Source: Pacificibacter marinus (GTDB taxonomy: Bacteria > Pseudomonadota > Alphaproteobacteria > Rhodobacterales > Rhodobacteraceae). Taken from it: a DNA stretch of 64,000 nt. Each line of letters starts with the position of its first letter. Within the stretch, counting starts at the first letter, position 1. The DNA is taken from assembly GCF_900109555.1 (NCBI RefSeq), contig NZ_FNZV01000006.1:62001-126000 (forward strand), written 5' to 3'. Below the pieces are notes generated by a model that did no database searches, had not been told where the DNA came from, and saw nothing but the letters and a program-made list of their open reading frames with translations. The translations under genes and the position numbers were made by a program. Below, one piece after another: positions 1,626-54,378 of the stretch.

Positions 1626-2579
1626 TTATTTATCGCGCGTCGTCCACAATGTGCGCGCTGCTGCACTGGGATTATGGTGACCAAGCGTATCCAGCGCCAA
1701 TGCCGCGGTGCTTTGGATCACGCCCTCAGCAAAGGGATCAATCAGCGCACCGGACCAGAGCGCAGCCAAACGCGCTGGGTCGCTTTCCCCATCATTCAGT
1801 TTACGTGTCTCGTCTAGGTCGGGCTCGAAATGATATTCCCACGGTGCGCCGTCGCGCAGACCAAATGCCACGATATCTTTGGATGGGTTACGTTCAAATT
1901 CACCCCCGCCGCCCTTGATCACAGTAAGCGACTTGAGGGATAAAATCTGCGACGCATCAGATTGAAGTTCACGGTATGAGGGATGAAAAACGCCCTGTAC
2001 GCTCACATCAGCCCCGCCGGGATTGAGCATCCGGCTGACGGTATTTAAACAGGAACGCAGGTTGAAATCACGCCGCAGCAAAAGCAATTTCAGTAATTTA
2101 GGCGCAAAATTTTCAAGCGGCAGATAAGCAATGCCCTGCGCTTTGAGGCTGTGTGCGGCGGCATCTGCATCGGCACACACAGCAATTCCAGCATAGGGCA
2201 ACGCATCACGAATGGCCTGCGCCGCCTCGCCTTCGCCGTTAAACCCATGCATCAAAACGCTGTACCCAGCTTGAGCGACCAATTTGGCAGAAAGCAGAAA
2301 ATACGGCAGCCCACGCGTGCGACCTGCAGCGTAGCTTGGCCAATCCAAATCAGGTTGCGGGACAGCTTTCAAATCATCCCGCAAGGCTTGTGTGAAGCCT
2401 GCGATTTCATCGGCGACCTCGCCTTTCATGCGTAGCAACATCAACAGTGCGCCGACAGATTCAGGCGCAGCTTGCCCCGCAAGAATGATCTGCATCGCCT
2501 CATAGGCCTCGGTGTAAGTGAGTGCCCGCGAGCGCCCGGGGCCGCGGCCTAGAATTCGAACATAGGGAGCGAGTGTCAT
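1626..2579 (-). CDS. Glycosyltransferase family 3 / TrpD2-like protein in the nitrate operon
   Basis: This 317-residue protein resembles anthranilate phosphoribosyltransferase-like (TrpD2/YbiB) proteins: a helical N-terminal segment (YTEAYEAMQIILAGQAAPESVGALLMLLRMKGE, here named by its ends) followed by an alpha/beta domain containing VLMHGFNGEG and KGGGGEFERNP. YbiB-type members bind nucleic acid and are not needed for tryptophan synthesis. Its ATG overlaps the nasA stop as ATGA, so it is translationally coupled to nitrate reductase. That context suggests a role in nitrate use or its control, but the function is unknown. The N-terminal start was moved to 2579 because upstream codons only read through nasA. 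Confidence 0.75.
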   Translation of the reverse strand: MTLAPYVRILGRGPGRSRALTYTEAYEAMQIILAGQAAPESVGALLMLLRMKGEVADEIAGFTQALRDDLKAVPQPDLDWPSYAAGRTRGLPYFLLSAKLVAQAGYSVLMHGFNGEGEAAQAIRDALPYAGIAVCADADAAAHSLKAQGIAYLPLENFAPKLLKLLLLRRDFNLRSCLNTVSRMLNPGGADVSVQGVFHPSYRELQSDASQILSLKSLTVIKGGGGEFERNPSKDIVAFGLRDGAPWEYHFEPDLDETRKLNDGESDPARLAALWSGALIDPFAEGVIQSTAALALDTLGHHNPSAAARTLWTTRDK

Positions 2580-5236
2580 TCTGCGGCTTCTTTCAAATTG
2601 GTCTGCGCCCCCCGCACCTTGGCAAGAAGCTCTGCTAACTCTGGTCTGCAAGAGCCACAATTCGTGCCCGCTTGCAAGGCTTTGCCAATCATGTCCACAC
2701 TCATCAAACTTTGGGCTTCGATGGCGGCCACGATCGTATTCACCCCGACATTAAAGCATGAACACACCACAGGACCAGCGTCAGGTTGATCCGCAGGCGA
2801 TACACCCGCGATGGCATTCGGCGCATCGGTGTTGGGTAAGGTCGCAAGATAATCACGCATCACAGCCACGGGTGATTTTGACACAAACAGCGCCGCTTTG
2901 AGAACACCGTCTTGATAAAAAGCCAACCGTGCAGTGCCCGAGTTTGCGTCTATCATAATTTGCGCTGGCGTGTCTGGCAAAGCAAACATCCGGCGCGCTT
3001 CGACTTCCCAATCTTTAGGAGCGCTACTTCCTGCCAATTCAAACCTGTATCCTGTCGTGGTTTTTGCCCGCGCCCAATAGGCACAGTTTGGCGAGACCTC
3101 ACCGGTAGAGATCGCAAAGCCATACCACTCGGCCTGAAACGGCGTCACTTGGACAACGGCAGCTTTGCTTTCAGGCTGACCAGACACAGGGTCGACCACA
3201 GGGGGCACCAGCGCGTCAACCCGCGCACAAGGGGCCGTTTCACCGGTCCAATGCATCGGTGCAAAAACATCACCACGCGTGACGCGATCTGTGATCAATG
3301 CGCGAAAAATACCACTGCCAACAGGGCTTTTCACCTGCGCCAACATAGAGTGTTCAAGGCCCATGGCCTGTGCATCTTCGGGGTGGATTTCCAAGAACGG
3401 CTCGGCCAAGTGTGCCGACAGACGCGATGACAAAGCAGTACGGGTCATCGTGTGCCATTGATCACGAATACGCCCTGTATTGAGACGGAAAGGATAGCGT
3501 TTTCCCGTCTTTGCAGCGGGGGCCCGATATGCCAGTGGCAGCATACGCGCTTTGCCATCCGGTGTGAAAAACTTGCCATCTGCAAAAAACCTACCGCCTT
3601 GGCGCGTGTCAGTGATAGGCCAGCGTTGCGGCTCAAGCGTGTCATAGGCGTCATTGTCGATATCCCCCAAGGCCGAGATATCAAAGTCCTTGCCAAAGGT
3701 GGTGCCAAGGCGGGACATTTGCGCATATTCGCGGAAAATGTCAGCTGGAGTGCCAAAGTCAAATGCAGACCCCCAGCCCATTTTGTCCCCCATGCGCCGA
3801 CCAACATCTGCCAAGATATCCCAATCTGGGCGGGCTTGTTCTGGGGCAACCATAGCTGCGCGTTGACGTGATATCGTGCGGTCTGAATTCGTGACAGTCC
3901 CGTCTTTTTCGCCCCATGCAGACGCGGGCAACAGCACATCTGCCAAGCGTGCTGTGTCTGTGGCCGCCGTGATGTCGCTGACGACCACAAAATCACAGCT
4001 CTTCATCGCTGCGACGACCTTATCTGCGTCAGGCATCGACACAGCGGGGTTGGTGTGAATGATCCACAAAGCTTTGATGCGACCATCACCGACAGCTTGG
4101 AACATGTCGACAGCCTTGAGACCTAATTTGGGCGACAGGCGATCTGTTTGCCAAAAACTAGACACAGCAGCATGGTGATCAGGGTTTTCAATATCCAAAT
4201 GACAGGCAAGCATATTGGCCAAGCCGCCAACCTCGCGCCCGCCCATTGCATTGGGTTGGCCTGTGACCGAAAATGGGCCGCAGCCCTTTGTGCCAATACG
4301 CCCCGTGACCAAATGGCAATTAAGGATAGCGTTGACTTTATCAGCGCCTGATGATGATTGATTGACCCCTTGAGAAAACACGGTGACGGTTTTGGGCGTG
4401 CCGATCCACATATCATAGAACTGAGTGAGCGCACTGGCCTCAAGCCCTGTGACACTGACATCATCGGCTTGAGCCGCCTCAATCGCAGCTTGAGCCCCGT
4501 TCACATGGTTGAGATACTGGTGATCAATCGCGCCACGCGCAGATATCTCGCCCAAAAGCCCATTGAACAGCGCCACATCCGTACCCACACGCAGCGGCAA
4601 ATGCAGATCGGCCAGATCACAACTTGCAGTGCGACGCGGGTCGATGACAATAATTTTCAAGTTGGGGTTCTTGTCACGCGCGGCCACGATGCGTTGATAC
4701 AACACAGGATGACACCACGCCAGATTGGACCCGACCAACACAATTTGATCCGCCGTTTCCAAATCCTCGTAGGTGCCTGGCACAGTGTCTGTCCCAAAAG
4801 CCCGCTTGTGACCCGCAACGGTAGACGCCATGCACAACCGCGAATTGGTATCGATATTGGCCGAACCGATAAAGCCCTTCATCAGCTTGTTGGCCACATA
4901 GTAATCTTCGGACAACAGCTGTCCTGATACATAGAACGCAGCGCTGTCTGGTCCGTGCTTGGCAATCGTGTCGGTAAACTTTTGGGCCACCAGATCAAGC
5001 GCAGTGTCCCAATCGGTGTCAGTACCGTTCAATTGTGGGGCCAAAAGCCGATCGCCAAGTCCAACGGTTTCGCCCAAAGCTGATCCTTTGGAGCACAAGC
5101 GACCAAAGTTTGCAGGATGATTGGGATCACCGCGCACAACCAAACCACCCTGCCCGTCAGGTTTCAGCAAGACACCGCATCCGACCCCGCAATAAGGACA
5201 GGTGGATCGGGTTTCATCTGATTGACAAGGCTTCAT
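2576..5236 (-). CDS. nasA: Assimilatory nitrate reductase catalytic subunit
   Basis: NasA reduces nitrate to nitrite in the cytoplasm with Mo-bis-MGD and iron-sulfur centres. The 886-residue protein has an N-terminal [4Fe-4S] site with Cys13, Cys16, Cys20 and Cys48 (CPYCGVGC, then LCSKG), the molybdopterin oxidoreductase core with the conserved segment GQPNAMGGREVGG, a molydopterin dinucleotide-binding domain (LNTGRIRDQWHTMTR), and a C-terminal BFD-like [2Fe-2S] domain with Cys825, Cys827, Cys860 and Cys863. The extra BFD domain is typical of the NasA form that takes electrons from a partner flavoprotein. The ATG at 5236 shares a base with the stop of the upstream flavoprotein (TGATG), which fits co-translation with its probable electron donor. 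Confidence 0.95.
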   Translation of the reverse strand: MKPCQSDETRSTCPYCGVGCGVLLKPDGQGGLVVRGDPNHPANFGRLCSKGSALGETVGLGDRLLAPQLNGTDTDWDTALDLVAQKFTDTIAKHGPDSAAFYVSGQLLSEDYYVANKLMKGFIGSANIDTNSRLCMASTVAGHKRAFGTDTVPGTYEDLETADQIVLVGSNLAWCHPVLYQRIVAARDKNPNLKIIVIDPRRTASCDLADLHLPLRVGTDVALFNGLLGEISARGAIDHQYLNHVNGAQAAIEAAQADDVSVTGLEASALTQFYDMWIGTPKTVTVFSQGVNQSSSGADKVNAILNCHLVTGRIGTKGCGPFSVTGQPNAMGGREVGGLANMLACHLDIENPDHHAAVSSFWQTDRLSPKLGLKAVDMFQAVGDGRIKALWIIHTNPAVSMPDADKVVAAMKSCDFVVVSDITAATDTARLADVLLPASAWGEKDGTVTNSDRTISRQRAAMVAPEQARPDWDILADVGRRMGDKMGWGSAFDFGTPADIFREYAQMSRLGTTFGKDFDISALGDIDNDAYDTLEPQRWPITDTRQGGRFFADGKFFTPDGKARMLPLAYRAPAAKTGKRYPFRLNTGRIRDQWHTMTRTALSSRLSAHLAEPFLEIHPEDAQAMGLEHSMLAQVKSPVGSGIFRALITDRVTRGDVFAPMHWTGETAPCARVDALVPPVVDPVSGQPESKAAVVQVTPFQAEWYGFAISTGEVSPNCAYWARAKTTTGYRFELAGSSAPKDWEVEARRMFALPDTPAQIMIDANSGTARLAFYQDGVLKAALFVSKSPVAVMRDYLATLPNTDAPNAIAGVSPADQPDAGPVVCSCFNVGVNTIVAAIEAQSLMSVDMIGKALQAGTNCGSCRPELAELLAKVRGAQTNLKEAAE

Positions 5237-6543
5237 CACGCGGCCCCTTTCAGAGCGACGGGGTGTTCTTGGGCGACTGCGGCACGCACGGGCATGCCAC
5301 CAATGGCGCACTGCGGCAAAGCAGCGATATCTGTTTCAAACGCAGGGCCAAAAATCAGTTGATCACGCAAAGCTGAAATATCTGTTTGTGCCAAGATATG
5401 AGACTGAAACCACGCCCCATCGCGCGTGTCCCCATAAAGCACCGCGCCTATAAGCTGCGATCCCTGGATCACCAATCGTTTATACGCGCCCTGTATAGGG
5501 TCATTCAAAACGATAATTTCACGTCCTGTGGCATCGGTAAAGTCACCAGCAGAAAACAAATCGCAGCCGGTCACTTTAAGCTTTGTTGCAACTTGTTTTT
5601 GCACAAAACGCGCGGGACACCCCATAAGCGTTTGCGCCAGAACTTTGGCTTGATCAAACAACGGGGCCACCAGTCCAAACACTGCGCCGTCATGTTCGAT
5701 GCATTCTCCCAATGCGAACACATCATCCACAGAACTGCGCATCATATCATCGACCTTCACGCCCATATTGACAGTCATACCTGCGTCTTTCGCCAGAGCA
5801 ACATTGGGGCGAATGCCCACCGCCATAACCAAAAGATCACAGGGCAATTCCGTACCATCGCTCAACTGCAAAGCCCGCACATTTCCATCAGGGCCAGCCA
5901 AGATAGCCTGCGAGTCAACATCGCATAAAACAGTGATACCGCGTGCCTCGATATCCTTTTTCAACAGTCCACCTGCGACGGCATCCAACTGGCGATTCAT
6001 CAAATGAGACGCCTTATGGATCACAGTGACCTTGATGCCGCGCGCGGCCATGCCAGCCGCAGCTTCAAGCCCCAAAACGCCGCCGCCAATCACCACAGCT
6101 TTGGCATCAGGGATTTGGGAAAATTCAATCATCTTGGCGGTGTCTTCAAGGTCACGATAAGCGATCACGCCAGGCAGATCATGACCCGGCAATGGGATTA
6201 TGAAAGGCACTGACCCTGTGGCGATCACGACCTTGTCGTAGGGCACGGCCCCCTGTTCGCCCCAGACAATCTTGGCCTTGGGATCAATCGACAACACGCG
6301 CTCGCCGAACCGACAGGTCACATGATGATCGTTGTACCAAGCATCATCATGGGTCACGATGTCTTCATAGGTTTTCTCGCCCGACAACACAGGCGACAGC
6401 ATCAATCGGTTATACGTGCCGCGTGGCTCTGCATTGAACAACGTCACTTGAAAATCATCAGGAGCGTCCGCCATCAAGTGATCCAGCAAACGCCCTGTGG
6501 CCATACCCGCGCCGATGATGACCAAACGCGTCATCATTGTCAT
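5236..6543 (-). CDS. NirB-type NAD(P)/FAD oxidoreductase, nitrate reductase electron-transfer subunit
   Basis: This 435-residue protein matches only the N-terminal half of NirB: an FAD-binding Rossmann motif (IIGAGMATGR, about residues 8-17), a second NAD-binding motif (VIGGGVLGLEAA) and the NirB/rubredoxin-reductase fold. It ends where NirB would continue into its BFD and siroheme domains, so it cannot itself reduce nitrite. Its length fits the NADH-oxidoreductase subunit of assimilatory nitrate reductase (NasC of Klebsiella, NasB of Bacillus), and it sits immediately upstream of nasA with a one-base overlap. I infer it passes electrons from NAD(P)H to NasA through the BFD [2Fe-2S] domain. 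Confidence 0.82.
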   Translation of the reverse strand: MTMMTRLVIIGAGMATGRLLDHLMADAPDDFQVTLFNAEPRGTYNRLMLSPVLSGEKTYEDIVTHDDAWYNDHHVTCRFGERVLSIDPKAKIVWGEQGAVPYDKVVIATGSVPFIIPLPGHDLPGVIAYRDLEDTAKMIEFSQIPDAKAVVIGGGVLGLEAAAGMAARGIKVTVIHKASHLMNRQLDAVAGGLLKKDIEARGITVLCDVDSQAILAGPDGNVRALQLSDGTELPCDLLVMAVGIRPNVALAKDAGMTVNMGVKVDDMMRSSVDDVFALGECIEHDGAVFGLVAPLFDQAKVLAQTLMGCPARFVQKQVATKLKVTGCDLFSAGDFTDATGREIIVLNDPIQGAYKRLVIQGSQLIGAVLYGDTRDGAWFQSHILAQTDISALRDQLIFGPAFETDIAALPQCAIGGMPVRAAVAQEHPVALKGAA

Positions 6544-8228
6544 TCCGCAGCCACAGCTTTGGCTGGCGGTGCCACTTTGGGCTTTGGAGTCGCGCCGTGC
6601 TCATACTCTTCCAAGAAATCCAATACCTCTTGGCGGTAGGCGTAATAATCGGGATGCTCCAAAAGCGCTTTACGCGTGCGTGGACGTGGCAGCTTGATAT
6701 CGGTGATTTTGCCAATCGTGGCTTGCGGCCCGTTGGTCATCATTACCACGCGGTCCGACAGTAAAATCGCCTCATCAACATCATGGGTGACACAAATCGC
6801 AGTGACTTTGGTGCGTTCCCACACTTCCATCAACACCTCTTGCAATTCCCACCGTGTCAGACTGTCGAGCATGCCGAAAGGTTCATCAAGCAACAGCAAT
6901 TTTGGGGACAAAGCAAAGGCGCGCGCAATGCCGACACGCTGTTTCATTCCGTTGGACATGGAATGCGCAGGCTTGTCCATTGCGTCCGCCAAACCGACAC
7001 GTTCGAGATAGTATTCGATCACGTCTTGGCGCTCGGCTTGGCTGGCTTTTGGGTAGACTTTGTCCACACCTATAGCGACGTTTTCTTTGGCGGTGAGCCA
7101 AGGAAACAGGTTGGGCGACTGGAACACTACAGCGCGCTCGGGGTCCGCGCCGCGCACCTCATAGCCATCAAGTTTAATCACGCCTTTGGAAATATCATTC
7201 AGTCCCGCAGCCATAGTCAAAACTGTGGATTTACCACAACCTGAGTGACCAATGATGGAAATGAATTCACCACGATTCACTTTCAAATCGAAATCTTCAA
7301 CAACCGTCAGTGGACCTTTGGGGGTTGGGTAAATTTTGTGGATTTTCGAGAAATCAAGGTAACGTTGTTCGATTGAACCTTCTTGTGCATCGGCAACAAC
7401 TTTGGGCACAGAATGGATCGCCGTCACATTTGGCAAACTGCGCATGCCTTCGTGTTTGGCCGTGATCCCGACATCCATAAGATAAGACGTCACGGCTACG
7501 CGCAGCGCTTTAAACGCCGCATCCGTATTCATAGCACCACGATCACGAGGGCGCGGGATATTAACCACAAAGGGCTCTCCCAGAGTACCATCCGGGTTCA
7601 GCGGCACAATACGATCTGCCAAAAGAATTGCTTCATCTACATCGTTGGTGATCAAAATACAGGTCTTTTGATCACGCTCCCAAATGTCCAAAATCTCATC
7701 CGCCAAATTGGCACGGGTGAGCGCATCCAGCGCTGAGAGCGGCTCGTCCAACAACAACATTTCGGGATCCATCGCCAATGCGCGCGCAACGGACACACGC
7801 TGGCGCATTCCGCCAGATAATTCAGCAGGACGGCGCGCGGTCGCATGCCCCAAGCCAACCATGTTGATGTAATGATCCGCTTTGTCGCTTTGCTCGGCTT
7901 TTGACAGCTTTGGAAACACACTTTGCACAGCCAGCAAAACGTTGCCCTTAACCGTCAACCACGGCATCAACGAATAGGATTGAAACACCAAGCCACGCTC
8001 TGGACCGGGCCCTGTGATCGGCTTGCCTTTGTAAGTGACCTTGCCAGTGTCAGGTGTCTCTAACCCTGCCACCATATTCATCAAAGTGGATTTACCGGAG
8101 CCGGAAAACCCGAGGATGGCTAGAAATTCGCCCTCTTTCACATCAAGTGAAATGTCTTTCAAAACCTCTGTGCGCGTCAGCCCGTTTCCGAAGCCTTTGT
8201 ATACTTTATCAAACGTTAGAATGCTCAT
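6540..8228 (-). CDS. nrtC: Nitrate ABC transporter, two fused ATPase domains (NrtC/NrtD)
   Basis: This 562-residue protein holds two complete ABC ATPases in tandem and powers nitrate import. Domain 1 has Walker A GFSGSGKST at 40-48, signature LSGGM at 137-141 and Walker B ending D161-E162. Domain 2 has Walker A GHSGCGKST at 327-335, signature MSNGM at 424-428 and Walker B ending D448-E449. The switch histidine is present in domain 2 (His482) but is Asn195 in domain 1, and the domain 2 signature is degenerate, so the two composite ATP sites should be unequal. Cyanobacterial systems use separate NrtC and NrtD; here there is no NrtA-like regulatory tail. Its stop overlaps the flavoprotein start (ATGA). 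Confidence 0.92.
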   Translation of the reverse strand: MSILTFDKVYKGFGNGLTRTEVLKDISLDVKEGEFLAILGFSGSGKSTLMNMVAGLETPDTGKVTYKGKPITGPGPERGLVFQSYSLMPWLTVKGNVLLAVQSVFPKLSKAEQSDKADHYINMVGLGHATARRPAELSGGMRQRVSVARALAMDPEMLLLDEPLSALDALTRANLADEILDIWERDQKTCILITNDVDEAILLADRIVPLNPDGTLGEPFVVNIPRPRDRGAMNTDAAFKALRVAVTSYLMDVGITAKHEGMRSLPNVTAIHSVPKVVADAQEGSIEQRYLDFSKIHKIYPTPKGPLTVVEDFDLKVNRGEFISIIGHSGCGKSTVLTMAAGLNDISKGVIKLDGYEVRGADPERAVVFQSPNLFPWLTAKENVAIGVDKVYPKASQAERQDVIEYYLERVGLADAMDKPAHSMSNGMKQRVGIARAFALSPKLLLLDEPFGMLDSLTRWELQEVLMEVWERTKVTAICVTHDVDEAILLSDRVVMMTNGPQATIGKITDIKLPRPRTRKALLEHPDYYAYRQEVLDFLEEYEHGATPKPKVAPPAKAVAAE

Positions 8229-8232
8229 GAAA

Positions 8233-9327
8233 TCACCGATTGTTCGAGAATGTTGTCAACGATTGCAACGCAAACATCACGCGGTCCAACAAGAACCCGA
8301 TGATGCCAATAGTCAGGACCGCCACGATGATTTTCGCCAGTGATTGTGATGATCCGTTTTGGAATTCATCCCAAACGAATTTGCCCAATCCGGGGTTTTG
8401 CGCCAGCATTTCTGCGGCGATCAGAACCATCCAACCCACACCCAAAGACAACCGCAGCCCTGTAAAGATAAGCGGCAAAGCAGAGGGCAATACCAGTTTG
8501 GTGATTTTGCTATAGGTGTTCATTTTCAAAACTTTCGACACAGATATCAAATCTTTATCGATCGTTGCCACGCCCATTGCTGTGTTGATTAACGTTGGCC
8601 AAAGCGAACAGAGCGTTACAGTGATCGCCGACACCAAAAACGATTTTGAAAACAACCCATCGTTGGTGGTGTAAACCGCTGAAACAACCATCGTCACAAT
8701 CGGCAACCACGCCAGCGGCGAGACAGGCTTGAACAGCTGCACAAGTGGATTGATCGCAGAGTTCGCATAAGGCGACAGGCCCGCAAAAATACCCAAAGGG
8801 ATGGCGATGATTGACCCGATCAAAAAGCCAAAAAATACCGTTTTGATCGAAGTCCATATCTGGGTGTAATATGATGGCGACCCTGTGTAGGGGATGTCTT
8901 TTACTTTTTCAGGTTGCCCATTCGCAATAAAACGCTCGTTGCGTTTATCAACCCGTGCCTCATGCGTGGCTTTCTTTTCGGTCTTTGCGATAGCATCCGC
9001 ATGTAAATTTTTCGCCTCAACCCACACGGCGGCGGGCCCGGGGATGGCCCCAAGCGACGTCACCACTTTGGGCGCCATAAAGCCCCATAACATCAAAAAG
9101 CCAACGATGGCTAAAACAGGCACACCCAAAAGCCGCCAAATCTCTTTACCTTGCGCCTTTGGATTATCACCTGCGAGAGCTTTCAAAATAGGCGTCATCC
9201 ATGGCAAGCCAAGCACCTGCAACCATTTGTCCGCCTTATTGATACGGGTGAACAGTTTTGCGCGCTTTGCCTCTTTAGATTTCGCACCCTGTGCTGCATC
9301 CAAAGTTTGTGGGTCGATGGCGGTCAT
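8233..9327 (-). CDS. nrtB: Nitrate ABC transporter permease
   Basis: This 364-residue inner-membrane protein belongs to the NrtB/SsuC-type permease family. It has a first membrane segment near residues 70-88 (GVPVLAIVGFLMLWGFM), a long hydrophilic insert, and then the five-helix permease core containing PLAWLPIV and the EAA-like loop typical of the family (VSKVLKMNTYSKITKLVLPSA region). It forms the channel through which nitrate delivered by NrtA passes. The gene lies four bases upstream of the ATPase gene and 60 bases downstream of nrtA, with a hairpin in between. Confidence 0.92.
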   Translation of the reverse strand: MTAIDPQTLDAAQGAKSKEAKRAKLFTRINKADKWLQVLGLPWMTPILKALAGDNPKAQGKEIWRLLGVPVLAIVGFLMLWGFMAPKVVTSLGAIPGPAAVWVEAKNLHADAIAKTEKKATHEARVDKRNERFIANGQPEKVKDIPYTGSPSYYTQIWTSIKTVFFGFLIGSIIAIPLGIFAGLSPYANSAINPLVQLFKPVSPLAWLPIVTMVVSAVYTTNDGLFSKSFLVSAITVTLCSLWPTLINTAMGVATIDKDLISVSKVLKMNTYSKITKLVLPSALPLIFTGLRLSLGVGWMVLIAAEMLAQNPGLGKFVWDEFQNGSSQSLAKIIVAVLTIGIIGFLLDRVMFALQSLTTFSNNR

Positions 9328-9387: not shown

Positions 9388-10755
9388 TTAGCCTTTGATG
9401 TCTGATCCAGAGACGATCTGCGCGCCCTTTAGACCAATCGGCAAACTGTCGAGATACGCGTTGGGTGCGGCCCCATCAAAACCGATGCCATCGATAACAT
9501 CCTCAGGTGGTGTCGGTGTTTTGTAACCATTAGAGTCCCAAGGGAAATCAGCCTCATCAGCCAAACCTTCGTCCACCAACAACTTGGCAGCCTCTAGGTA
9601 AATTGCGGGTTTGTAGACAGATTTCGCAATGTCATCGTACCAGCTGTCAGACTTTGCTTCGGCGATCTGACCCCAACGACGCATCTGTGTAAGGTACCAA
9701 ACAGCGTCAGAATAAAACGGGTATGTCGCGTTGTAGCGAAAGAACACGTTGAAATCCGGGACATCGCGTTTATCACCTTTTTCATATTCAAACGTGCCTG
9801 TCATAGAGGCCGCGATCACATCAGCATCGGCACCGACATAGTCTGGACGTGACAGAATTTCGACAGCTTCCATACGGTTGGCATTGTCATTTTCATCCAA
9901 CCACATCGCAGCACGAATCAGCGCTTTGACGACAGCTTTCGTGGTGTTGGGGTACATTTCAGAAAACTCGTTGGTGATGCCAAACACTTTTTCTGGATTG
10001 TTTTTCCACAGTTCATAATCGGTCACCACAGGCACGCCGATGCCTTTAAATACGGCCTGCTGGTTCCATGGTTCGCCAACGCAATACCCATCAATCGTGC
10101 CAGCTTCCAACGTCGCAGGCATCTGTGGTGGAGGCGTAACAGACAAGAACACCTCTGCGCCAATCTGGCCCGTCACGTTCTCAGGCGAATAATACCCCGG
10201 ATTGATGCCACCCGCTGCCAACCAGTAGCGCAGCTCGTAATTGTGAGTGGACACAGGGAACACCATACCCATGTTGAACGGCTTGCCTTTCGCGGCATAG
10301 TCATCCAGCACAGGTTTCAACGCGGCAGCCGAAATAGGGTGAGAAATTTTACCATCGGCATCTATGGGTAAATTCGGTTTGATCGTTTCCCAAACATCAT
10401 TCGACAACGTAATACCGTTGCCGTTCAAATCCATCGAGAATGGCGTGATAATATGTGACTCGGTGCCGTAACCGATTGTGGCCGCCAAAGGTTGCCCTGC
10501 CAGCATGTGCGCACCATCGAGAGTACCGTCGATTACGCCATCCAAAAGCACCTTCCAATTGGCCTGCGCTTCCAATGTGACAAACAGACCTTCGTCATCG
10601 AAGAAACCTTTCTCATAGGCCACAGCAAGCGGCGCCATATCGGTCAATTTGATAAAGCCAAATGTCAGTTCATCTTTTTCAAGATCCAACATTTCGGCAA
10701 AGCCGGATGTTGCAAGTGCTGTGCTGGCGATCAGGCTAAGAAGTATTGTTTTCAT
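9388..10755 (-). CDS. nrtA: Nitrate-binding periplasmic protein
   Basis: NrtA captures nitrate (and possibly nitrite) in the periplasm and delivers it to NrtB. The 455-residue precursor begins with a signal peptide ([20 protein letters not shown], cleavage expected after Ala20) with no lipobox cysteine, so it is probably soluble rather than lipid-anchored. The mature part carries NrtA/CmpA family segments such as [19 protein letters not shown] and [15 protein letters not shown]. NasS, encoded upstream, is a cytoplasmic relative sharing these motifs. The gene has a long structured leader (10756 to about 11010) that should control the whole downstream operon. Confidence 0.95.
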
Positions 10756-10820
10756 TTCAATGTCCCTTTGTCATCGTCCGTCTTGGGTCCGGTTTCTGTA
10801 CGAGCCAGACCCAAAACACG

Positions 10821-10877
10821 AAAAAAGCCGCCGATACGAACCACCCGGGAGGAGGCGGGTGGTTCGTATCGAGCGGC
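10821..10877 (-). terminator. Leader terminator (attenuator) upstream of nrtA
   Basis: In the minus-strand transcript GCCGC plus CGAUACGAACCACCCG pairs with CGGGUGGUUCGUAUCG plus GCGGC, a 21-bp stem with one bulged base and an 8-base loop (10848-10855), directly followed by six U residues (complement of 10821-10826). It lies 66 bases before the nrtA start, so it cannot be the end of nasS alone: it must be read through to express the transporter and reductase. With NasT encoded just upstream, this is a textbook target for antitermination. Confidence 0.9.
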
Positions 10878-10939
10878 TTTGCTCTAAGCTTTCATCAACG
10901 AAAGCAAAATTCTGCGTCGCGGCGCCATTGCCGTGCGAC
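10876..10939 (-). promoter_or_regulatory. Candidate ANTAR (NasT) antiterminator RNA, two hexaloop hairpins
   Basis: Two small hairpins precede the terminator in the transcript. Hairpin P1 (10939-10916) pairs GUCG and CGGC with GCCG and CGAC, with a two-base CA bulge and the hexaloop AAUGGC. Hairpin P2 (10889-10876) pairs GCUU with AAGC around the hexaloop AGAGCA. Both loops have A at position 1 and G at position 4, the pattern known for ANTAR targets, and the 3' arm of P2 overlaps the first bases of the terminator stem, so forming P2 should hinder termination. An alternative hairpin GCUUUC/GAAAGC with loop GUUGAU (10907-10890) competes with P2. P2 is only 4 bp, so its stability is uncertain. 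Confidence 0.65.
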
Positions 10940-11016
10940 TGACTTTATTTGACCCCTCCAGCATCGCCTCAGCAACGCCTCACAGCATCTTTTTGCAGAT
11001 GCAGCAAATTGAGCCA

Positions 11017-11043
11017 ATTATATGCTTATTATTTAGGCATCAA
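11017..11043 (-). promoter_or_regulatory. Possible promoter for the nrtA leader
   Basis: On the minus strand a consensus-like -10 TATAAT (11022-11017) follows a -35-like TTGATG (11043-11038) with 15-base spacing. This would start a leader of about 250 bases near 11010 that includes the hairpins and the attenuator. The short spacing weakens the call, and nitrogen-controlled promoters may not match this consensus. Confidence 0.35.
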
Positions 11044-12215
11044 ATCTCTGTCGGCTCAAAAACGCGCCCATCAAAAAACGTATCCCGTTCAAGAACAATC
11101 TGCCCCGACTCCGATTCTACACCCGACGGAGTTGCTCTGACCCCTTCAAGTTTCGCCGTCGCTATGGGCAAATCAGCCGATGTGCGCGCAAGGGCAGCGC
11201 GATATAGATCTGAGCGAAATACAGATCCGGCAGCGGCCAATGCCGCAGGTCGATCCAGCCCCAAACGGGCTGCAAACTGCCCGCCAATCCATTCCGCTTG
11301 CGAGCGCCATGGAAACCCTGCGGCACCGTTGCTGAATTCCATAAACTGCGGAACAGATCGCTCAAGACCCGACTTGGATATTACCAGTCGCCCCTCAAAG
11401 GCACGATCTAAAATTTCAGCCGACATATTCAAATACGCGGGACGCGCCAAAAGTTCGGATCGCAAAATACGAGACGACGGATCGGCAAGCCACCGTCCAG
11501 CACGCCACACAGATCGGATCAAGCGCCCCATAAGCGCGGACTCTTGTTCCGCCCAATCACTGCGCACGGCCAGTACCTTTTCTGGTGCGAATGCCCAGAT
11601 GGCCGCCCCCGGTATCAACAGTTCTCCAACGCCATTTTCAACAGCGATAGACCCCCAAGGTTCGCCAACACAAAAGGCATCAATCTCGCCCGCTTTGATC
11701 GCATCAGCCATCAACGATGGCGGGACGGTTTTGATGTCTACGCCCTGCGGCGCGGGCAGGCCCAGCGCGGACAACCAGTAGTATAAAAGCTCGGCATGCA
11801 TCGAAAATGGAAAGGGCACACCAATGCGTAAACGCACACCTGACGCTGCGATCAATGCCTTGCCAGCAGCGTAGGCATCATTGAAATCAAAGTTATGTCC
11901 CGCATCACGCATACGCTGAGCCAAAGCGTTAGACACACCAATAACTGTACCATTTATGGACAAAACTGAAACAGCAGACAATTTTGCACCGGCCCCACCA
12001 AGCCCTAAAGCCGTCGCAACAGGTACAGGCGACAGCATATGGGCGGCTTGAACTTGACCAAAACTCAGCATATCGCGCAAAGACGACCAAGACGGTGCGC
12101 GGCGCAAATCAAGCACGAGACCTTCTTCGGCGGCAAAGCCCATTTCTTGCGCAATGATCAGCGGTGCGGCATCGACAAGCGGGATAAACCCAACCGATAA
12201 AACAGTACCTTTCAT
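11040..12215 (-). CDS. nasS: Nitrate sensor NasS
   Basis: This 391-residue NrtA-family protein lacks any signal peptide (it starts MKGTVLSVGFIPLVDAAP), so it stays in the cytoplasm. It keeps the family segments IDAFCVGEPWGSIA and PFPFSMHAELLYYWLSALG. NasS is known to hold NasT in an inactive complex and to release it when nitrate or nitrite binds, allowing antitermination of the nas leader. The ATG overlaps the nasT stop (ATGA), so the two are made together in the order nasT-nasS. The nrtA leader begins at its 3' end. Confidence 0.92.
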   Translation of the reverse strand: MKGTVLSVGFIPLVDAAPLIIAQEMGFAAEEGLVLDLRRAPSWSSLRDMLSFGQVQAAHMLSPVPVATALGLGGAGAKLSAVSVLSINGTVIGVSNALAQRMRDAGHNFDFNDAYAAGKALIAASGVRLRIGVPFPFSMHAELLYYWLSALGLPAPQGVDIKTVPPSLMADAIKAGEIDAFCVGEPWGSIAVENGVGELLIPGAAIWAFAPEKVLAVRSDWAEQESALMGRLIRSVWRAGRWLADPSSRILRSELLARPAYLNMSAEILDRAFEGRLVISKSGLERSVPQFMEFSNGAAGFPWRSQAEWIGGQFAARLGLDRPAALAAAGSVFRSDLYRAALARTSADLPIATAKLEGVRATPSGVESESGQIVLERDTFFDGRVFEPTEI

Positions 12216-12796
12216 GCCAACAGCCCCGCGGCCGTCACCAAAGCATTCGCCACATCAGCGACGCGTTTACCTTGGTCCATCGCGGTTTTACGCAACAGCG
12301 CATAGGCTTCGTCTTCGCTTACTCCACGCGCACGCATCAACATGCCTTTGGCGCGATCAATGACCTTGCGCTCTTCTAAAGCGCGCTTGGTTTCGGCCAG
12401 TTCAGTGCGCATCCGCTGAAACATACGAAAGCGCGCAATCGCCGCGTCGATCACAGGTTTCACACGTTGGCTTTGCAGCCCGTCCACGACATAGGCTGAC
12501 ACACCAGCTTCGATCGCCGCCGCAGAAAGGCCTTCGTCAGAACGATCCACAAACATCGCAACAGGACGATCCAGCGGACCAGAGGCCAACGCCAATTCTT
12601 CAAGCATATCGCGGGATGGGTTTTCCACATCAATCAAAACGATGTCTGGATTGTGCTCTTTAATATGTCGCGCCAAGCTTGTTGGTTCCGCAATAACATG
12701 CAAATCAAAATCGCCTGCATCACACAGACTATCAACAATAAGCGCTGCGCGAGCGGGGTCTGTTTCGACGATGATTACGCAAAGTGTATGAGCCAT
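12212..12796 (-). CDS. nasT: ANTAR-domain antitermination regulator NasT
   Basis: NasT binds paired hexaloop hairpins in nascent nas leader RNA and prevents termination. The 194-residue protein has an N-terminal receiver-like domain (residues about 4-120, Asp56 at the usual phosphoacceptor position) and a C-terminal ANTAR helical domain from about residue 130 (ALEERKVIDRAKGMLMRARG, then SEDEAYALLRKTA). I chose the ATG at 12796, which starts directly with the receiver fold; an open frame extends 27 codons further upstream without family resemblance. It is divergent from mobA across 222 bases. Its probable target lies at 10821-10939 before nrtA. Confidence 0.93.
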   Translation of the reverse strand: MAHTLCVIIVETDPARAALIVDSLCDAGDFDLHVIAEPTSLARHIKEHNPDIVLIDVENPSRDMLEELALASGPLDRPVAMFVDRSDEGLSAAAIEAGVSAYVVDGLQSQRVKPVIDAAIARFRMFQRMRTELAETKRALEERKVIDRAKGMLMRARGVSEDEAYALLRKTAMDQGKRVADVANALVTAAGLLA

Positions 12797-54273: not shown

Positions 54274-54378
54274 GGTGCCTTGAGAGGTTGGCGCGGGCGA
54301 GCGCCTCGCCAACCCGGTCAGATCCGGAAGGAAGCAGCCGCAACGAGTCCCGTTTGGGTCGCTGTCCAGCCTCTCACC
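54274..54378 (+). ncRNA. ffs: Signal recognition particle RNA (small bacterial type)
   Basis: The stretch folds as a single long hairpin: GGTG at 54274 pairs with CACC at 54375, GAGAGG with CCTCTC, and the apical domain contains the SRP signature GGTCAGATCCGGAAGGAAG followed by CAGCC (54315-54338), which binds Ffh. The ends are set by the outer pairs and may be off by a few bases. It lies between cpdB and rsgA; in related genomes the RNA is often near dnaX, which is the case here. Confidence 0.95.

Follow-up and report, generated by a model that had tools for sequence, protein, structure and literature searches.

ANTAR-dependent antitermination is known from the protein and leader pairs EutV/eutP, NasR/nasF and AmiR/amiE, in which, according to the available parts of the reports, the leader RNA carries two hairpins whose hexaloops begin with A and have G as the fourth base (places 1 and 4, hence the A1/G4 rule), the last hairpin overlaps the 5' arm of the terminator, and an ANTAR protein is present (PMC3369931, PMC8934654, PMC3369936). 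The eutP loops start at A29 and A53, that is, 24 nt apart, and a 14-nt linker drastically lowered induction (PMC3369931), while 20 additional nt between the loops abolished EutV antitermination in vitro (PMC8934654). Linkers between the hairpins measure 5-12 nt in the eut genes and 2-25 nt in curated actinobacterial targets (PMC8164766). The residues R142, E160 and Y164 of EutV hold G4, and M172 is among the other residues with an assigned role (PMC8934654); a change of A1 weakened EutV binding (PMC3369931), and A1 makes no contact in the EutV crystal (PMC8934654). The authors of the 2022 structure proposed that the dimer binds the two loops in succession (PMC8934654). Having one extra G4 hexaloop besides the dual motif, EutX of E. 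faecalis is in part a precedent for RNAs with three or more hexaloops, but it acts in trans as a sequestering RNA (PMC8934654).

The nearest described NasT target, the nasA leader of P. denitrificans, lies, as does the leader reported here, directly downstream of the genes of a NasS-NasT pair (PMC3795266, PMC5424462). NasT binds this leader (PMC3795266); mutation of its hairpin HI results in no growth on nitrate, and mutation of HII in two-fold higher expression in ammonium-grown cells, HII being attenuator-like (PMC5424462). The available parts of these papers, with which we compare by description, present two hairpins and mention neither a hexaloop rule nor a middle hairpin, and the controlled gene is nasA, whereas here it is nrtA. 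In Bradyrhizobium diazoefficiens the NasT targets (nos, nirA, coxS) also have NasT-interaction hairpins in their mRNA leaders and form a regulon, not a single operon, and the likeness is stated without loop anatomy in the available description (PMC6759348).

The leader analyzed here was found in a 64-kb stretch of DNA (the window). It shares with the dual-hexaloop systems two hairpins with A1/G4 loops (P1 and P2), the overlap of the last hairpin with the terminator 5' arm, and the ANTAR protein gene, but it differs in having a row of three hairpins, P1, Pm and P2, the extra one being placed between P1 and P2 before the terminator. The P1 and P2 loops are 49 nt apart, versus 24 nt in eutP, and the P1-P2 linker is 31 nt long, outside the ranges given above for the eut genes and the actinobacterial targets. 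No three-hairpin ANTAR leader was found in the open-licence literature searched, although one might be described in work on the nasF, nirBD and nosR leaders. A NasT antitermination leader as such is nearly commonplace in bacteria of this kind, and the new element is the third, hexaloop-like hairpin.

Gene context

The genes flanking the leader are located as follows.

12212-12796, minus strand: nasT, receiver-like domain plus ANTAR domain, presumed RNA-binding antiterminator
11040-12215, minus strand: nasS, NrtA-like nitrate-sensor homologue overlapping the nasT stop (PF13379, E 3e-61)
9388-10755, minus strand: nrtA, binding protein of a nitrate ABC transporter, heading a presumed operon (PF13379, E 3e-94)
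2576-9327, minus strand: remainder of the presumed operon after nrtA, consisting of the next four features
8233-9327, minus strand: nrtB, match under the family cut-off
6540-8228, minus strand: nrtC, above the NCBIfam ntrCD cut-off
5236-6543, minus strand: NirB-like reductase, nirB match under the family cut-off
2576-5311, minus strand: large ORF, last in the presumed operon

The large ORF is presumably a nasA-like reductase. The NrtA-like NasS and the receiver-ANTAR protein NasT are thus encoded together, adjoining nitrate assimilation genes, and the domain matches bear out the first-pass annotation in placing both genes directly upstream of the leader. The start of nasT was set at the ATG of MAHTLCVIIVETD inside its ORF; domain scan and phmmer comparison were run on 12212-12790 and gave the ANTAR domain (PF03861) at E 4e-22 and the receiver domain (PF00072) at E 7e-6, the latter under the curated cut-off. 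The product matches EutV (6wsh/6ww6) and NasR (4akk) in phmmer. Counted along the alignment with EutV, R142, E160, Y164 and M172 are kept and R177 is also R, K147 is replaced by R and R175 by G, and N173 by D, the same as in NasR. The NasS protein has 41-75% identity with counterparts beside nasT in Rhodobacteraceae, its nearest named relative among the matches listed being from Pacificibacter marinus (87%; leader L165).

Relatives of the leader were collected through NasS, which was matched at E<=0.001 in 89 of 198 family genomes, in 79 at E<=1e-50 and in one (G057) at 1.6e-50; the 80 loci taken include that of the window (L001). Ahead of nasS, nasT was matched in 77 of them, the other three being cut by contig ends. 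Omission of L079 and L080, whose nasS is cut by contig ends, left 78 leaders, 76 of which precede an NrtA-like gene; L023 and L045, with no nrtA directly downstream (theirs are in L109 and L108), were also left out. Seven more (L042, L052, L053, L054, L059, L074 and L077) were set aside for another layout or an unanchored P1, so that P1 and P2 were anchored in 69 leaders, by hand in L058, L061 and L071. Alignment A1 comprises 48 of these (the window and 47 relatives), mostly chosen for their P1-P2 spacing, and alignment A4 comprises 89 model-found rows, nine of which are identical to A1 rows while others possibly represent species among the 69.

Hairpins P1 and P2 and the terminator

The leader occupies 284 bases of the minus strand (10756-11039) between the nasS stop (11040) and the nrtA start (10755). 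Its minimum free energy (MFE), -120.2 kcal/mol, is lower than in 200 of 200 dinucleotide shuffles (z -6.05). Searched against Rfam, it gave no match at gathering score and no ANTAR-named match up to E 10. The outer hairpins and the terminator are the following.

10916-10939, minus strand: P1, GUCGC-AC-GGC[AAUGGC]GCC-GCGAC, loop 10929-10924 (A1, G4)
10871-10884, minus strand: P2 as corrected here, antiterminator hairpin GAGC[AAAGCC]GCUC, loop 10880-10875 (A1, G4)
10821-10880, minus strand: intrinsic terminator whose stem pairs 10880-10856 with 10847-10824 around the loop 10855-10848, with six U at 10826-10821; excludes P2

The hairpin with loop AAUGGC, which had been proposed as the first one, folds at 10939-10916 and is kept in relatives: in A4 both A1 and G4 are present in its loop in 89/89 rows, and seven of nine stem pairs in A1 and eight of nine in A4 show double changes. 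The second hairpin had been drawn as GCUU[AGAGCA]AAGC (10889-10876), which can be folded on paper but is unconserved; the true P2 begins 5 nt further on (10884-10871), and relatives have, nearly invariantly, GAGC[AAAGCC]GCUC or variants of it with an A1/G4 loop. The P2 cells are paired at 92.5% in A1 and 96.4% in A4, and in the A4 loop G stands at place 4 in 89/89 rows and A at place 1 in 87/89. As the model behind A4 was trained on A1 and the anchors of the 69 leaders were picked partly by the A1/G4 rule, the pair counts of P1 and P2 are fairer evidence than their loop counts. For P1, Pm and P2 together 83.8% of the cells are paired in A1, with covariation of 0.400 against 0.164 in shuffled alignments (equalled in 0/500 shuffles), and 84.2% in the 89 sequences of A4, with covariation of 0.365 against 0.160.

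We consider it highly improbable that the target is the pair of P1 and the AGAGCA hairpin, with GCUUUC/GAAAGC as a competing third state. Both loops of this pair fit the A1/G4 rule in the window sequence alone; however, the AGAGCA hairpin pairs in 33.6% of 140 cells of A1 against 32.5% in shuffled columns, a value reached in 157 of 500 shuffles, with two of its four pairs heavily gapped in that alignment. By eye it is missing in L165 of Pacificibacter marinus, and forcing it in the nascent RNA gives -18.3 versus -24.2 kcal/mol, i.e., costs about 6 kcal/mol. Accordingly, the expectation that both hexaloops are kept in close relatives holds for the P1 loop and fails for AGAGCA, and the P1-P2 linker, formerly given as 26 bases, becomes 31 nt with the corrected P2.

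The terminator folds with 8+16 pairs, a single U being bulged out and the loop measuring 8 nt, while a separate terminator listing gives 17 pairs; a stem of 21 bp with six U, as first described, is recovered once three A-U pairs with the U-tract are left out. In RNA extending through P2 the MFE structure is P1-Pm-P2 (-24.2 kcal/mol), and in the full leader with the terminator it is P1-Pm-terminator (-63.9 kcal/mol). The terminator of the window shares the whole P2 loop and three of the four bases of its 3' arm, and not two bases of the second hairpin as was first thought. This mutual exclusion recurs in relatives: in 68/69 leaders, the window included, the terminator fold pairs at least two of the four bases in the 3' arm of P2 (three in the window), and in 68/69 it pairs at least three of four scored loop bases (four in the window). 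When P2 is forced in the full leader, what remains of the terminator is a shorter upper stem set apart from the U-tract, which is the way ANTAR antitermination is described in the available part of PMC3369936.

The terminated RNA predicted by these folds has intact P1 and Pm and might act as a decoy titrating NasT in trans, besides or instead of the action in cis, EutX of E. faecalis being a precedent in the part of the report seen (PMC8934654). The consumption of P2 by the terminator in cis in 68/69 leaders points rather to cis control, and a search of the genome of the window found a single credible copy (next best E 4.7), so we regard the decoy as quite unlikely.

Another strong hairpin follows the U-tract and precedes the start of nrtA (10779-10818, -24.7 kcal/mol including its surroundings); as a family trait it was rejected, with mean z of -0.35 over 66 leaders.

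The middle hairpin

Within the linker lies the third hairpin.

10888-10905, minus strand: Pm, GCUUUC[GUUGAU]GAAAGC, loop 10899-10894 (G1, G4)

This GCUUUC/GAAAGC stem of 6 bp had been noticed earlier and interpreted as a possible competing state; the hairpin is real, folds, and is compatible with both P1 and the corrected P2, and competition is unsupported by the present results. Most relatives carry a hairpin at the Pm position. Three C[RNNGNN]G hairpins of at least 4 bp, as in the leader, occurred in 6/5000 shuffles of the 284-nt sequence, the pattern having been chosen post hoc.

The loop of Pm was evaluated in a blind test, in which the best hairpin of each linker was picked by stem strength alone and its loop read afterwards. 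Among the 69 linkers G was found at place 4 in 48 (mean 13.0, maximum 23 in 200 shuffled sets) and the pattern C[RNNGNN] in 38 (mean 1.6, maximum 6). In 71 further linkers, which are rows from L165 on with none identical to an A1 row, the respective counts were 53 (mean 13.9, maximum 23 in 300 shuffled sets) and 38 (mean 1.8, maximum 5). The alignments, in which the A4 loop leans toward the model, agree with these blind counts. G4 is present in 44/47 relatives of A1, and their loop begins with A or G in 42/47; with the window row, which is misregistered, the column has G4 in 45/48. In A4 G4 is present in 81/89 rows (84 have a letter there), while G occurs at places 2, 3, 5 and 6 in 0 to 7 of 83-88 rows. 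Hence the Pm loop, judged from its letters, tends to keep the ANTAR signature, mainly a purine as the first base and G as the fourth. Exceptions exist: place 4 is A in L027, L072 and L073, and eight of the 89 A4 rows are without G there. A further point against Pm as an ANTAR target is the frequent G at place 1, given the weaker EutV binding after a change of A1 (PMC3369931), although the crystal has no contact at A1 (PMC8934654).

The stem of Pm also speaks against it. Largely built of CCC/GGG, it shows little covariation (of the 89 rows of A4, 83 have C-G at pair 46-65 and 84 at pair 47-64); two of four pairs have double changes in A4, and the four of four in A1 are poor evidence, as three rest on single sequences and two rows, those of the window and L063, are misregistered at Pm. 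Applied to A1, RNAalifold predicted P1 and P2, and did not call Pm. By eye, a stem is kept with varying letters, from UUUC/GAAA in the window and UUCC/GGAA in Pacificibacter marinus to GUCC/GGAC in L056, GUGCC/GGCAC in L062 and GGAUGCC/GGCAUCC in L065 among divergent leaders. By a strict definition Pm is present in 43/69 leaders (26 fail), compared with 5.3, at most 11, in shuffles.

Spacing of the loops

From loop to loop, P1 and Pm are separated by a median of 28 nt (range 22-32 in A1 and 21-32 in A4), Pm and P2 by 21 nt (18-24 and 18-25), and P1 and P2 by 49 nt (44-51 and 42-52); over all 69 leaders the last distance ranges from 38 to 63 with the mode at 49. The window has 30, 19 and 49 nt, respectively, and its linkers of 10 nt (P1-Pm) and 3 nt (Pm-P2) are near the short-linker range of ANTAR targets. 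By analogy with eutP, a reading with P1 and P2 as the sole pair would break the known spacing, whereas the three-hairpin reading would keep each step near it.

Outside Alphaproteobacteria, seven terminator arrays whose last two loops lie 21-23 nt apart were identified at six of 16 nasT loci of other proteobacteria (L274, L277, L278 twice, L279, L280 and L281), three of these loci coming from one genus, g458. L274 and L280 have additional upstream hairpin candidates, L271 and L276 weaker candidates, and the other eight loci gave no array by the same filter. The equal spacing of Pm and P2 (21 nt) suggests that these two correspond to the plain pair and that P1 has been added.

These data bear on the main rival explanation, in which Pm is a structural spacer that folds the linker so that one NasT dimer reaches P1 and P2, the Pm loop remaining untouched. 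Such a role would suit a hairpin sitting in a 31-nt linker otherwise beyond the known limits of EutV, as well as the 7-nt loop of 24 of the 43 strictly defined Pm hairpins and the frequent G at place 1. A spacer needs no loop rule, however, yet G4 is kept in 81 of the 84 lettered A4 rows, in agreement with the blind tests, and the Pm-P2 distance equals that of the two-hairpin arrays outside the class (21-23 nt). The loop rule thus counts against the spacer, which we regard as possible but rather doubtful.

Proposed mechanism

In our opinion the leader is very probably a NasS-NasT antitermination circuit, with the corrected P1-Pm-P2 anatomy before a strong terminator. This reading follows P. 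denitrificans by analogy, because there NasT binds the nasA leader and hairpin HI is needed. The complete nitrate-sensing circuit seen by the first-pass annotation is supported in its genes, its conservation, its co-occurrence with nasS and the terminator before nrtA, and was partly wrong in its anatomy, that is, in P2 and the middle hairpin.

Without nitrate, NasS would hold NasT, and the nascent RNA would pass through P1-Pm-P2 until the terminator overtakes P2 and ends transcription ahead of nrtA. In the presence of nitrate, released NasT would bind P1 as it emerges, be handed on through Pm, and then stabilize P2; the latter would consume the base of the terminator stem and leave a shortened hairpin apart from the U-tract, allowing the polymerase to read into nrtABC and beyond. 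The relay via Pm would extend the successive-binding model, as far as it is presented in the part of PMC8934654 available. For the contact of NasT with Pm and the hand-on through it we see about even chances. A natural leader with three loops, twice the distance and the middle loop at approximately the permitted step would make the successive-binding proposal directly testable.

Distribution of the element

At E<=1e-4 the covariance model R1 matched 64 of the 198 family genomes, all having a NasS match of 1.6e-50 or better. At E<=0.01 it matched 74, of which 71 have such a NasS match and three (G027, G034 and G056) do not. Conversely, 16 of the 80 nasS-bearing family genomes are without an R1 match at 1e-4 and nine at 0.01. 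Among NasS-aligned loci from named genomes (best 80 of 581) a match at E<=0.01 is present in 80/80. The class-wide search listed 17 matches in 16 of 289 genomes; convincing are L081, which is that of the window, L086, from the same family, and L087, which comes from family f107 and adjoins its nasT, and the remaining ones, inspected by their letters only, seem to be chance.

Some genomes have a second match. In four of them it lies directly before a gene of siroheme synthesis, cysG or cobA (uroporphyrinogen methyltransferase), at these positions.

L102, 991-1059: second copy before cysG or cobA
L103, 1024-1091: second copy before cysG or cobA
L104, 2877-2944: second copy before cysG or cobA
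L105, 3015-3078: second copy before cysG or cobA

In one further genome it precedes a nirB-like gene that scores under the family cut-off. By eye, a G4 middle loop is present in L102, L103 and L104, perhaps in L106, with C at place 1, and absent in L105. The weaker second matches L107 and L110-L114 resemble chance hits or parts of coding regions. Siroheme synthesis is the cofactor route for nitrite reductase, and the element before its genes in some Rhodobacteraceae would widen the NasT regulon there. A strong terminator between two genes of the same strand could also be constitutive, ending nasS without regulation, with the hairpins being incidental. That the loops and stems are conserved, that the element occurs together with nasS, and that it recurs before cysG/cobA make this explanation extremely unlikely.

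For other alphaproteobacterial families 20 loci were taken, of which L154, L162 and L164 have no leader, and 17 were counted. A stricter first filter gave two candidates in the 20 loci, and the intergenic stretches were then read and recounted. In the 17 leaders 42 of 72 C-G-closed hexaloops begin with a purine and have G as their fourth base, against a mean of 5.2 and a maximum of 12 in 200 shuffled sets. Such hairpins number at least three in six leaders (up to five), two in ten and one in one, some counts including hairpins far from the terminator that are possibly chance (e.g., L145, L157, L161). In L147 (reverse strand, ~3970-4120 from the start) five C[RNNGNN]G hairpins precede the terminator of an NrtA-like gene, a result reached in 0/5000 shuffles. 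It is an evenly balanced question whether alphaproteobacterial NasT targets are in general multivalent, i.e., rows of three to five hexaloops along which NasT would be passed, or cooperatively loaded, toward the antiterminator. If they are, the steepness of the read-through response to nitrate would depend on how many loops there are and how good they are, and the two-hairpin motif known from the literature would represent the minimal form of a relay of longer reach. The layout also suggests that two-hairpin searches with linkers of up to 25 nt could miss the three-hairpin class.

Several observations were made in passing. L053, L054, L059, L074 and L077 share a sister layout, with a downstream binding protein distantly NrtA-like (30-42% identity); by eye, L054 has three hairpins, all with A1/G4 loops (AACGGC, AAAGAT, AATGAC), and the leader of Paracoccus sp. 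JM45 (L233) also has the three-hairpin layout. Upstream of P1, dyads of the TGCNGCNNTGC type are present in 38/69 leaders (mean 1.8, maximum 5 in 100 shuffled sets); placed between the nasS stop and P1, they are perhaps a candidate DNA-binding site for a regulator. Elsewhere in the window, a bacterial small SRP RNA at 54282-54378 is the sole Rfam match at gathering score.
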